Below, in pieces: positions 45,577 to 49,316 of a stretch of DNA of 64,000 bases. Position numbers and translations under genes: made by a program. The notes under the pieces were generated by a model. The model was not told where the DNA came from. It did no database searches and worked only from the letters and a program-made list of their open reading frames with translations. Numbering within the stretch: position 1 is the stretch's first letter; each line of letters opens with the position of its first letter. This stretch comes from Cellulomonas edaphi (GTDB lineage: Bacteria > Actinomycetota > Actinomycetes > Actinomycetales > Cellulomonadaceae): the NCBI RefSeq assembly GCF_030362815.1, contig NZ_JAUCGR010000003.1:248001-312000 (forward strand), in the 5' to 3' direction.

Positions 45577-46893
45577 ATGAGCACGCTGACCTCCGCGGAC
45601 GACGTGCCGCAGCCGCTCGTCGTCCGGACCGTCGCGCTCGACGGCCTCGGGGACGGCAGCGACCCGACCGACCCCACCGACCTGCTGGGTCTCCTGCCCG
45701 CCGACGCCCCGCTCGCGTGGGTGCGGCGCGGGGACGGGCTCGTCGGGTGGGGCGAGGCCCTGCGCGTCGAGGTGACGGGGGCGACGCGGTTCGCCGATGC
45801 CGAGCGGGCCTGGCAGGCCGTCCTGGCCCGCGCGATCGTGCGCGACGAGGTCCGCCTTCCGGGCACCGGGCCGGTGGCGTTCGGCTCCTTCGCGTTCGAC
45901 GAGCACTCCCCCGTCGGCGGTGTCGTCGTGGTCCCGCGCGTCGTCGTCGGCCGCCGGGGCGGGCGCGCGTGGCTCACCACGATCACCACGGGTGCCCAGC
46001 TGGGCTCCGCGCCCGCGCTGGTCGACGTCGTCGGCCCCCGCGTCCCGCCGCGCGCGCCGGGCACCGTGACGTACGACGACGCGTCCGCCGCCGACTGGCC
46101 CGACGTCGTGGCCCAGGGCATCGCGGCGATCCGCGCGGGCGAGGTGGACAAGGTGGTGCTGGCCCGCGACGTGCACGCGCGCACCGAGCACCCGCTCGAC
46201 TCCCGCTGGGTGCTGGACAGGCTCGCCGCGCAGTACCCGTCGTGCTGGACCTTCAGCGTCGACGGCATGCTCGGCGCCACGCCCGAGCTGCTGGTGCGCT
46301 CCGAGAAGGGACTCGTCACCTCCCGCGTGCTGGCCGGCACCATCCGCCGCACGGGTGACGACGCGGCCGACGTCGCCCGCGCCGCGATCCTGGCCCACTC
46401 GTCGAAGGATCTCGAGGAGCACGAGTACGCGGTGCAGTCCGTGGCGCACGCGCTCGAGCCGTTCTGCTCGTCGACCAACGTGCCCGACGTGCCCTTCGTG
46501 CTGCACCTGCCCAACGTGCTGCACCTCGCCTCCGACGTGACCGGCGTGCTGGCCGGCGGCGCGGGATCGCACCCGTCGTCGCTCGCGCTCGCGGCGGCGC
46601 TGCACCCGACCGCCGCCGTGTGCGGCACGCCCACCGAGGCGGCGCGCAAGCTCATCGCGCGCGTCGAGGGCATGGACCGAGGGCGCTACGCCGGGCCCGT
46701 GGGCTGGTTCGGCGCCGACGGTGACGGCGAGTGGGGCATCGCCCTGCGCTCGGCCCAGGTCGATCCCGAGGACGGGCGGCGCGTGCGGCTGTTCGCCGGC
46801 TGCGGGATCGTCGCCGCCTCGGACCCCACGGCCGAGCTGGCCGAGTCCGAGGCCAAGCTGGTCCCCATGCGCTTCGCCCTCGCCACCGACTGA
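45577..46893 (+). CDS. menF: isochorismate synthase
   Basis: 438 residues; converts chorismate to isochorismate, the first committed menaquinone step. C-terminal chorismate-binding domain shows [41 protein letters not shown] and the metal-binding [14 protein letters not shown] with later [14 protein letters not shown]. Start ATG at 45577 with no ribosome-binding site (see the leaderless promoter entry). Convergent with the HtrA-like gene across the repeat cluster at 46976-47563. Related salicylate/DHB synthases share the fold, but menD nearby supports MenF. Confidence 0.92.
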
Positions 46894-46900
46894 CCCGCCA

Positions 46901-46959
46901 CCCCCCCCCGCCGGGCCCGACGCGCGCCGCCCGAGCCGCCCGCGCCGCCCGAGCCGCCC
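46901..46959. repeat. C9 run and 9-bp tandem repeat after menF
   Basis: A run of nine C bases (46901-46909) lies just past the menF stop, and four 9-mers alternating GCGCCGCCC and GAGCCGCCC follow at 46924-46959 (18-bp period, two copies). Likely slippage-prone; also a spot where assemblies can err. Confidence 0.7.
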
Positions 46960-46975
46960 GAACTGCACGTTCCCC

Positions 46976-47064
46976 TGCGCCGACCGCGGGTCATCCGGCA
47001 CAAGCGCTAGCCGCGCGCCACGCGCGGTCGGTCCGCGCGACCCGCGGTCGGCGAGGTGTGTGCG
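46976..47064. repeat. 89-bp interspersed repeat, copy 1 (most diverged)
   Basis: Contains the core CGCGCGGTCGGTCCGCGCGA and CCCGCGGTCGG; its left third is diverged. Shares extra downstream sequence with copy 4 (AGGGGA about 10 nt past the end, then GGGTAGACGGG). Confidence 0.75.
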
Positions 47065-47165
47065 ACGCCAAGGGGAACCGTGTCCCCGCGAGGGCGGATG
47101 GGTAGACGGGTACACGAGAAAGCGGGCATGACCGGCGAGCTGCTGTCGCCGCCGGCCCTCGTATT

Positions 47166-47254
47166 CACGCCGAGCGCGGGTCGGGCGGCGCGAGCGCTGG
47201 TCGCGCGCCACGCGCGGTCGGGCCGCGCGACCCGCGGTCGGCGCGGTGTGTGCG
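47166..47254. repeat. 89-bp interspersed repeat, copy 2
   Basis: Reference copy: CACGCCGAGCGCGGGTCGGG at the left, core CGCGCGCCACGCGCGGTCGG, then CCGCGCGACCCGCGGTCGG. CGCGCG-CCA-CGCGCG and CGACC-CGC-GGTCG can form hairpins. Confidence 0.8.
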
Positions 47255-47310
47255 CTTGCGCGGCGGCCCGTGCCGCCAGGCTGGCCGTGCCGCCTACCCG
47301 ACGGGAGCCC

Positions 47311-47399
47311 TACGCCGAGTGCGGGTCGGGCGGCGCGAGCGCTAGTCGCGCGCCACGCGCGGTCGGCCCGCACGACCCGCGGTCGGTGCTGGGTTGCGC
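47311..47399. repeat. 89-bp interspersed repeat, copy 3
   Basis: Same length as copy 2 and aligned without gaps; differs by scattered substitutions and at the right end (TGCTGGGTTGCGC). Confidence 0.8.
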
Positions 47400-47474
47400 T
47401 GACCCCGCGCGCCGGCCCGGCCACGTGCCGCCCAGGCCGCGCGCTGACCGTGCGGCCGACCCGACGCCAGCGCT

Positions 47475-47563
47475 CACGCCGAGCGCGGGTGTTGCGGCGC
47501 GAGTGCTGGTCGCGTGCCGCGCGCGGTCGGGCCGTGCGACCCGCGGTCGGCGAGGGGTTTGCG
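47475..47563. repeat. 89-bp interspersed repeat, copy 4
   Basis: Ungapped alignment to copies 2 and 3; has CGCGTGCCGCGCGCGGTCGG in the core. Downstream flank resembles that of copy 1. Confidence 0.8.
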
Positions 47564-47681
47564 TGGCGCCCAGGGGACCGAACCGAGAGGGCGGGACCGG
47601 GCCCGGGGCGGGTAGACGGGGATGGCCGGCGACGGCGCGCCAGGGGGTGCGCGCCGGTCGCCGGCCGGTGTGGGGAGGGCG

Positions 47682-49316
47682 TCAGCCCTGGTTGCCCTGG
47701 GAGCTGCCGTCGCCGCCGCCCTGCTGCTCCTGGAACCACTTGTACAGCTGCTCCGGGGTGAGCTGGTCGAGGTTGGGGCCCTGGCCCGAGCCGTTGTCGG
47801 GCGCGGACTGGTCCGGCGTCGACTGGTCCGGCGAGGACTGGTCGGGCGTGGACTGCTGCGGCGCCTGCTGCGTCGCGTCCTCACGCGTCGCCAGCGTCAC
47901 GTCGACGTCGAGCGCCTTGCCGTCGCGGACGATGGTCAGCGTGGCCTTGTCGCCCGAGGTGAGCGAGCGGACGTAGGCGGTCAGCGACTCGGCGCCCCCG
48001 ACGGGCTTGTCGTTGATCGCGACCACCACGTCGCCGACCTTGAGGTCGGCAGCGGCAGCGGGCGAGCCGTCGCTGACGGACTCGATCTTGGCGCCCGCGC
48101 GGGTCACGCCGTCGGCGGTCGCGGTGCCGTCGTTCAGCCCGACACCGAGGAAGGCGTGCTTGGCCGTGCCGCTCTCGATGAGCTGCGCGGCGACGTTCTT
48201 CACCAGGTTGGACGGGATCGCGAAGCCGAGGCCGATCGAGCCCGACTGGCTGGAGAGCGTCGCGATGGACGAGTTGATGCCGATGACGCGGCCCTGCGCG
48301 TCGAACAGCGGGCCGCCGGAGTTGCCGGGGTTGACCGCGGCGTCGATCTGGATCGCGTTCGTGACCGTGCCGGCCCCACCGTTCTCGCCCTGCGTGGAGA
48401 CGGGGCGGTCCACCGCGGAGACGATGCCGGTGGTGACGGTGTTGGCCAGGCCGAGGGGGTTGCCGACGGCCATGACCGGCTCGCCCACGACGACGCCGGC
48501 TGAGTCGCCGATGGCGGCGGGGACAAGGCCGCTGGGCGCCTTGTCGAGCTTGATGACGGCGAGGTCGGTGGTCGGGTCGGTGCCCACCACCGTGGCGTCG
48601 AAGATGCGGCCGTCGGTCAGCGTGACGGAGACCTTGCCCTCGGCGCCGGCGACCACGTGGTTGTTGGTGACGATGTGTCCGGCGTCGTCGATGATGACGC
48701 CCGAGCCCTGCGCACCGCCCTGCGAGGTCGTGACGGCGATGGCCACCACCGACGGCTGCACGGCCTTGGAGACAGCCTGCCAGTCGGGGTCGTCCGAGGT
48801 GGAGCCGGACACGGGCACCGCGTCGTTCGAGGTCTGGCCGATGGTGGCCAGGGACGCCGGCGAGGCGCCGTCGGGGCCGTCGTCGTGCGTGATGCCGAAC
48901 ACCGCGATGCCCGCGACGAGCGCGCCGACCGCCGCGGCGGAGGTCACGGGGAGCCACGCACCACGCTTCTTGGCGGGGGCCTGCGTGGCGACCGCCGGCT
49001 GGTCGGGGAACCAGGGGTTCACGGGCTGGGCCTGAGCGCCGGGGGCTGCCGGCGCGGCGCCGACGTACGGCATCGGCGCGGTGTGCGCCGGCACGGCAGC
49101 ACCGGCGGCGCCGGCAGCGGCGGCAGCACCAGCGCCGGCAGCGGCACGGTCGGCCGCCTCGCGCTGTGCCGCCTCGCGCTGCGCGGCCTCGTACAGCGCG
49201 CGCTGGTCGGCGGGCGCGGCCGGGTGCGGCGGCGTGAACGGGTTGGTGGGGTGCGGGACGGGCGGGATGGGCTGCGTCGTCTCCGACTGCGGGTGCTCGT
49301 TCTCTGGCGTGGTCAT
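47682..49316 (-). CDS. HtrA/DegP-like membrane-anchored serine protease with PDZ domain
   Basis: 544 residues from the ATG at 49316 (GAGGAGG 8 nt upstream). A cytoplasmic Pro/Ala-rich N terminus (1-117) with repeated AAQREA units, one membrane helix (about 123-141), a trypsin-like protease domain with His220 (TNNHVVAG), Asp251 (DPTTDLAVIKLD) and Ser333 (GNSGGPL), then a PDZ domain (about 375-465). The C-terminal tail has SPDQSTPDQ repeats. It degrades or refolds damaged proteins outside the membrane. Homologous to mycobacterial PepD/HtrA proteins. Convergent with menF; 119 bp past menD. Confidence 0.92.
   Translation of the reverse strand: MTTPENEHPQSETTQPIPPVPHPTNPFTPPHPAAPADQRALYEAAQREAAQREAADRAAAGAGAAAAAGAAGAAVPAHTAPMPYVGAAPAAPGAQAQPVNPWFPDQPAVATQAPAKKRGAWLPVTSAAAVGALVAGIAVFGITHDDGPDGASPASLATIGQTSNDAVPVSGSTSDDPDWQAVSKAVQPSVVAIAVTTSQGGAQGSGVIIDDAGHIVTNNHVVAGAEGKVSVTLTDGRIFDATVVGTDPTTDLAVIKLDKAPSGLVPAAIGDSAGVVVGEPVMAVGNPLGLANTVTTGIVSAVDRPVSTQGENGGAGTVTNAIQIDAAVNPGNSGGPLFDAQGRVIGINSSIATLSSQSGSIGLGFAIPSNLVKNVAAQLIESGTAKHAFLGVGLNDGTATADGVTRAGAKIESVSDGSPAAAADLKVGDVVVAINDKPVGGAESLTAYVRSLTSGDKATLTIVRDGKALDVDVTLATREDATQQAPQQSTPDQSSPDQSTPDQSAPDNGSGQGPNLDQLTPEQLYKWFQEQQGGGDGSSQGNQG

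Follow-up and report, generated by a model that had tools for sequence, protein, structure and literature searches.

Four-box palindromic repeats dispersed in Cellulomonas and Frigoribacterium and a putative AbiEi-Vsr-like protein that may read them

Between the convergent 3' ends of a menF-like gene and an HtrA-like gene, the window analysed here (a stretch of 64,000 nucleotides from Cellulomonas edaphi) holds four diverged copies of a repeat, and the question raised by this locus is what kind of element the repeat represents and what might act on it. A sequence-only reading had taken the copies for members of an interspersed palindromic family of unrecognised type, and searches of the same genome and of related ones support such a family, mostly intergenic in location. 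The family itself was thus recognised from the start; a plan of four short boxes within each element, and a gene bracketed by elements at another locus, were not visible to that reading. We consider it probable, if well short of certain, that these lineage-specific box arrays are the cognate sites of the bracketed protein, which has an AbiEi-Vsr-like make-up.

The four copies lie where they had been placed, with starts 190, 145 and 164 bp apart and hence spacers of 101, 56 and 75 bp for 89-bp units (Table 1). The copies are ungapped as described; the conserved unit is shorter than 89 bp, at about 76 nt, consisting of a 70-nt dyad and its edges. The downstream sequence common to copies 1 and 4 was confirmed, as was the 788-bp gap between the menF-like and HtrA-like reading frames, the former of which has relatives in 58 of 60 genomes of the genus. 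In copy 2 the 38-nt arms are 82% complementary. Taken alone and with up to three mismatches, the 16-mer CGCGACCCGCGGTCGG occurs in the GC-rich window no more often than by chance (17 times, against an expected 20.9). The complete unit greatly exceeds chance: a search of the genome with copy 2 returned the other three window copies at E values of 2e-28 to 3e-26 and the best copy outside the window at 7e-24.

Table 1. Coordinates of the repeat cluster and its neighbours within the window; the boxes correspond to columns 4-14, 24-34, 43-53 and 63-73 of the element alignment.
Feature	Position	Strand	Details
Left neighbour, menF-like gene	45577..46893	+	Gene coordinates; named by the sequence-only reading and by eye
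Intergenic region with the cluster	46894..47681		788 bp, convergent genes either side
Element copy 1	46978..47053		Boxes 46981-46991 (+), 47001-47011 (+), 47020-47030 (-), 47040-47050 (-)
Element copy 2	47168..47243		Boxes 47171-47181 (+), 47191-47201 (+), 47210-47220 (-), 47230-47240 (-)
Element copy 3	47313..47388		Boxes 47316-47326 (+), 47336-47346 (+), 47355-47365 (-), 47375-47385 (-)
Element copy 4	47477..47552		Boxes 47480-47490 (+), 47500-47510 (+), 47519-47529 (-), 47539-47549 (-)
Right neighbour, HtrA-like serine protease gene	47682..49316	-	Gene coordinates; named by the sequence-only reading and by eye

The search with copy 2 gave 90 matches in the genome at E values up to 10, many of them weak and many representing both strands of a single dyad. 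Counted by profile over the window and 19 further fetched stretches, partial copies included, the genome holds 34 matches in 11 clusters of one to seven copies each; the weak matches in L032, L033 and L048 carried no profile match when scanned. In several clusters the flanks are also common to the copies, as with ccagccctgcgc ahead of those in L039, and between clusters the core alone is shared; the common flanks within clusters argue that arrays grew by local tandem duplication. Three contig ends of the assembly (the start of C1, and ends of C2 and C4) fall in elements, so that arrays probably broke the assembly, and the end of C3 is a weak half match (E 8.9e-4 in the genome search, 0.0039 in a later scan). 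Since the genes at the C2 end (guaB3-like) and the C4 end (exonuclease-like) adjoin in the related genome G045, both ends probably belong to one divergent cluster. One element copy (L045:6403-6483), which follows an ilvC-like gene, is broken by a stretch of N in the assembly. A seven-copy cluster on the same contig as the window surrounds a nuclease-like gene at tuf-rpsJ.

The anatomy of the element was derived from 30 aligned copies of this genome and from 52 non-redundant copies among 59 in five Cellulomonas genomes. The core consists of four 11-bp boxes, CGASCGCGSGT twice and then its reverse complement twice (a >> << plan), which start at intervals of 20, 19 and 20 bp, and CGGC lies in the gap between the first two. 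Among the 52 copies, conservation reaches 95% or more at 26 of 76 positions, where uniform change would leave 0.18 such positions; those conserved are symmetric about the dyad, and the degenerate ones mirror one another (S at 7/70, R/Y at 18/59). Sought in any sequence at 24 of 27 matches, the four-box plan occurs once in 1,150,374 bases from 27 other Cellulomonas genomes.

Within the genus the element is patchy: a covariance-model scan, whose filters discard weak matches, detected copies in 5 of the 80 genomes sampled. After merging, the fetched loci hold 34 matches in the genome of the window (G000), 21 in G071, 10 in G023, 6 in G002 and 1 in G045. Two of the G023 matches come from a single copy, doubled by an inverted duplication several kb long (L082, contig C14), which has identical proteins on both arms and is perhaps an assembly artefact. 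When ten element sites of the G000 genome were compared, an element was held at none in G045, three in G071 and one in G002; the window site itself is empty in G045, and an element follows menF in G071 and G023. Orthologous position does not make copies more similar (0.725, versus 0.751 for other copies, G000-G071), and similarity thus gives no support to site-by-site inheritance in Cellulomonas. Insertion boundaries did not emerge in this genus, since intergenic flanks mostly do not align between species.

A pattern scan of genome contigs identified the element-bearing relatives as Cellulomonas rhizosphaerae and Cellulomonas sp. JH27-2, HZM and PhB150, and also returned Frigoribacterium faeni AS3.2 and Frigoribacterium sp. 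ACAM 257, which belong to a different bacterial family, the Microbacteriaceae. The same scan gave five single matches in unrelated records, of which the profile listed a betaproteobacterial one alone (E 0.007). An order-wide scan of 396 genomes found three Cellulomonas genomes and five single matches, the latter at the level of the control (six matches with the reversed pattern).

The Frigoribacterium box, CGAGGGCGGGT, is unlike the Cellulomonas box, and the geometry of 20/19/20 is identical. In this genus a half-element pattern gave 31+30 and 38+41 matches, its reversed control 0+0 and 1+0. Of 78 box groups, counted over overlapping loci, 36 have starts at intervals of 20, 19 and 20 bp, the remainder being singles, partial or extended arrays. 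Two ACAM 257 elements (L263:4338 and L262:4395) are lengthened by extra boxes at exact 20-bp steps, which suggests array growth by single 20-bp units. Elements are unevenly spread along the F. faeni chromosome: no half-element match is listed in G461 C1:1-890000, and the remaining 0.53 Mb of this 1.42-Mb contig has about ten places.

Comparison of the two Frigoribacterium species indicates what is being preserved. Right halves predicted from left halves alone, with both strands read, were found at the predicted place with at most two mismatches in 22 in 41 of 41 cases in F. faeni and in 52 of 55 in ACAM 257. Nine ACAM 257 loci are orthologous to F. faeni element sites (one of ten query pieces had no clear ortholog), and at five of these nine both species carry elements. 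In eight in-register comparisons the boxes are identical at 42-44 of 44 positions, and the linkers and centre at 10-20 of 26; a ninth, off-register row reaches 37 of 44 in the boxes. That boxes stay identical while linkers are lost points to selection acting on the DNA itself. In F. faeni there is no covariation between left and right linkers (pairing 0.778, versus 0.799 when shuffled); in ACAM 257 the linker halves associate (0.637 versus 0.537, reached in 1 of 1000 shuffles), for which two linker types could be the cause. One element (L280:12182-12251 and L282:1830-1899) lies inside coding sequence in both species, at a site between PIG-L-like and methyltransferase-like domains as named by eye.

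These data bear on whether the elements act as RNA hairpins, that is, as bidirectional terminators or transcript stabilisers at gene ends, an explanation we regard as rather improbable. Fold prediction, which had been called for, shows that the window copies do fold stably as single strands (z -0.66 to -3.44 over both strands). A selected hairpin should also show coordinated change at its paired positions, and in the 30 copies of the G000 genome these change independently of each other: pairing occurs in 15 of 30 copies at columns 7/70 (17.0 expected), in 13 of 30 at 27/50 (13.8 expected) and in 3 of 30 at 32/45 (6.6 expected), the largest excess in Cellulomonas falling outside the boxes (columns 3/74; 20 of 29, against 17.5). 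Compensatory stem changes that would mark membership of a structured RNA are absent in Cellulomonas and F. faeni alike, though the ACAM 257 linkers associate, and the element had no match in Rfam at E 1. The hairpin as a conserved feature, part of the original description, therefore finds no support; strong box conservation without stem covariation instead suggests a multi-site protein target.

The surroundings of the elements bear on the same question. By our own gene calls, copies occupy intergenic DNA of every gene orientation, and convergent gaps are mildly over-represented (4 of 8 clusters placed in the G000 genome, 3 of 13 in G071 and 10 of 26 Frigoribacterium elements, over backgrounds of 29/199 and 22/116 that include the element gaps). 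The excess is what a role at transcript ends would predict; several elements, however, stand between divergent genes, and 1 of the 26 placed Frigoribacterium elements lies inside a gene, an orthologous pair being found there. The suggestion that the family acts mainly at convergent 3' ends is thus not supported, the excess over background being mild.

If the boxes are a protein target, the gene at tuf-rpsJ provides a candidate reader. Six element-rich genomes encode a protein of about 300 amino acids between elements, upstream of rpsJ in G000, G071, G002 and G023 and at another locus in F. faeni and ACAM 257. Identity to the G000 copy is 67% in G071, 65% in G002 and 63% in G023; the Frigoribacterium pair is 73% identical, and Cellulomonas and Frigoribacterium proteins about 35%. 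The downstream element starts 3 (G000), 3 (G071), 12 (G002), 23 (G023), 9 (F. faeni) and 11 bp (ACAM 257) after the recorded gene end, at which G002 and ACAM 257 have no stop codon. With elements at both ends, the unit measures 1272 bp in G000, 1178 in G071, 1255 in G023, 1181 in F. faeni and 1184 in ACAM 257; the G002 gene is interrupted by one in-frame stop, and its upstream element matches only weakly (E 0.0044). At the same locus G045, whose genome gave a single element match, has the neighbouring gene and the rpsJ leader and lacks the unit. The two bracketing elements are not specially alike (equally similar pairs number 79 of 231 in F. faeni, 202 of 406 in ACAM 257 and 107 of 190 in G071), and pair similarity offers no support for their being matched ends. 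Elements also bracket at least two other genes in F. faeni (L273 6860-7744 and L275 4424-4825).

Because these six genes were first met in element-centred loci, the link was then tested from the other side, with six further homologs found by protein or by locus. Synteny from menF gave 26 further Cellulomonas loci, 18 of which had both tuf and rpsJ in range; the nuclease-like gene was present at tuf-rpsJ in two of the 18 (G024 and G054) and absent from 16. G024 had no match in the element scans, yet its gene is bracketed by a pair of 73-nt repeats, 71% alike and 1196 bp apart, the upstream one of which has the >> << plan at 19-bp steps and is the sole four-box match mentioned above. In G054 a 74-nt dyad lies downstream of the gene, and 16 nt of this dyad recur upstream; the tandem array of a 34-bp repeat that immediately follows the gene (L347:11129-11332) is unrelated to the dyad. 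A plasmid collection provided the other four homologs (L368-L371). The Tsukamurella gene L369 has a 78-nt pair, 88% alike, with the box CGCTGCCG at 19 bp; L370 a pair of 45 nt and 20 nt that share one register, with a downstream copy that overlaps the end of the gene; L371 direct repeats of 131 nt that are not palindromic; and the Collinsella gene L368 four repeat copies upstream and two downstream. Of the six homologs, drawn from Cellulomonas, Tsukamurella and Collinsella, five are thus flanked by private repeats on either side and the sixth mainly on one.

For comparison, 235 control genes from Cellulomonas were scored by the best ungapped match of their upstream flank to their downstream one, and the highest score was 19.0. 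The scores of the element-bracketed genes were 40 (G000), 35 (G071), 12 (G002), 26.5 (G023), 62 (F. faeni) and 41.5 (ACAM 257), and those of the further homologs 20.5 (G024), 19.0 (G054), 55.5 (L369), 27 (L370), 72 (L371) and 38 (L368). Ten of the 12 genes therefore exceed all controls, G024 narrowly; G054 ties the maximum and G002 is ordinary. The controls, all from Cellulomonas, are unmatched for Tsukamurella or Collinsella, and the target genes were given 70 more downstream bases than the controls to accommodate the overlapping copy of L370. In their own records the L369 and Collinsella repeats occur at 3 and 7 places, two and six of which flank the gene, which leaves room for little dispersal at most; only in Cellulomonas and Frigoribacterium is dispersal away from the gene evident.

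These homologs also weigh on a different account, that the elements are sites of a lineage-specific host DNA-binding protein with a role in chromosome organisation or regulation, the nuclease-like gene being one neighbour among many. The strict retention of boxes at orthologous sites where linkers are lost suits a host function, as do the occurrence of elements at convergent, divergent and co-directional gaps alike and the two other F. faeni genes between elements. It would leave unexplained, however, why homologs found without reference to the elements carry different private repeats, and the presence of the family in so few genomes of the genus also speaks against it; we judge this account unlikely.

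A structure model of the bracketed protein built from five homologs (pLDDT 83.5) resembles, by Foldseek, AbiEi (6y8q, E 2.6e-4) and Rv2827c (1zel, probability 0.97, E 0.0039) as well as Vsr endonuclease (1cw0 and 1vsr, probability 0.93-0.94, E 0.14-0.16). PADLOC assigned AbiEi to three proteins (1.8e-13, 4e-8 and 4.6e-10) over stretches within residues 5-194. From lengths, secondary structure and these stretches, the AbiEi/Rv2827c matches would be N-terminal and the Vsr match C-terminal. Residues E189, D221, E232, D234 and K238 are invariant in five homologs and fit a PD-(D/E)XK nuclease site. The fold match, at these E values, and the invariant acidic residues would be compatible with a Vsr-like endonuclease; unlike Vsr, the predicted nuclease part is joined to an AbiEi-like one. 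Pfam, NCBIfam and PHROGs returned nothing over cut-off for the protein, a DUF559 match in one of five proteins scanned (E 0.0053) lying below it. Other DUF559 genes (L307-L309) have neither elements nor full-length homology to the nuclease-like protein. Searches for viral and phage relatives of the protein found none, and among the annotated neighbours in L368-L371 no toxin partner is named, AbiEii nucleotidyltransferase included, as judged by annotation names.

Bracketing at both ends of a 1178-1272-bp unit recalls a mobile element, and the repeats might be MITE-like derivatives of a DDE or other unrecognised transposon. Like MITEs they are short, non-coding, inverted-repeat and dispersed through intergenic DNA; their patchy distribution, and the 1.18-kb unit of G071 missing from G045, would also fit. 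Against this, the bracketed gene encodes an AbiEi and Vsr-like fold with no transposase family match, no parent transposase is known, the window element was not found on the plasmids, phages and viral contigs searched, and the 51 Frigoribacterium elements examined show no clear target-site duplication (0-2 matches for lengths 4-9 at offsets 0-1, the two 5-bp ones at offset 1 comparing with 0.1 expected). A MITE origin is accordingly very improbable in our estimation, and with ends that are not specially alike, classical transposition is doubtful.

The best-known precedent for repeats with an enzyme of their own is the REP/REPIN-RAYT system, kinship with which had been suggested for the window copies. 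As characterised in PMC3733652 and PMC3116915, REP sequences are mostly extragenic short palindromes in local clusters, with the enzyme gene flanked by repeats; a constant GTAG (or CGTC) tag at one end is the criterion (PMC3733652), and REPINs are inverted doublets with a variable spacer, near 70 bp (PMC3116915). The present elements resemble them in being interspersed, mostly extragenic, numerous and of similar size and doublet form, and in bracketing an enzyme gene, a likeness of form only because the enzymes are unrelated. They consist of four 11-bp boxes at 20/19/20 bp in place of two REPs, and the enzyme candidate is AbiEi and Vsr-like where REPtrons have a Y1 tyrosine transposase. Kinship is not borne out: the Y1 transposase family PF01797 was found in none of the seven genomes searched and in 5 of 14 control genomes, which refutes a RAYT link by that criterion in these assemblies. 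Neither tetranucleotide is a constant tag: of the 58 Cellulomonas copies, 3 have GTAG and 20 have CGTC within 12 nt of an end on either strand, and of the 44 Frigoribacterium copies none has GTAG and 25 have CGTC. A REP unit is 20-40 nt long, and the element here 70-76 nt. Classical REPs or REPINs moved by a RAYT are thus scarcely credible here.

The closest published behaviour is that of AbiEi and Rv2827c, which, according to PMC7319586, bind two and four 23-bp inverted repeats, respectively, beside their own genes. The system described here has in common with these operators a winged-helix AbiEi-type protein and repeats in inverted pairs beside its gene; it differs in an additional C-terminal nuclease-like domain, in repeats that flank the gene on either side and, for Cellulomonas and Frigoribacterium, in their genome-wide dispersal. 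On this precedent, we envisage that the four boxes, which, at about two helical turns from one to the next, would all face the same side of the helix, make up a recognition site of two-fold symmetry. The likely reader is the tuf-rpsJ protein, whose winged helix would bind the boxes and may through them control its own gene, and whose nuclease part might allow single copies to reach new intergenic sites through cutting or nicking followed by repair; tandem duplication would then expand them into local arrays. Both nuclease-driven repair copying and a binding role useful to the host are plausible.

To our knowledge, interspersed palindromes with a dedicated enzyme are known only from Y1-transposase (RAYT) systems, and open-access literature searches found no description of the pairing reported here, which looks like an undescribed repeat-plus-enzyme system in actinobacteria. 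More tentatively, and with the balance slightly against it, it may be a new self-propagating or genome-marking system of the Actinomycetota, in which an AbiEi-Vsr-like nuclease is coupled to a private, fast-changing box array that brackets its own gene and is scattered over the chromosome in Cellulomonas and Frigoribacterium. If so, it would do with an unrelated enzyme what REPIN-RAYT does, the repeats around the Tsukamurella and Collinsella homologs being further dialects, and it would suggest a possible function for AbiEi-DUF559-type proteins, which as far as we know are common and unexplained in actinobacteria. It provides testable pairs of site and enzyme from soil and air bacteria, and a second, unrelated repeat-enzyme pairing would, if true, offer a new model for how bacterial genomes gain and keep short repeats.
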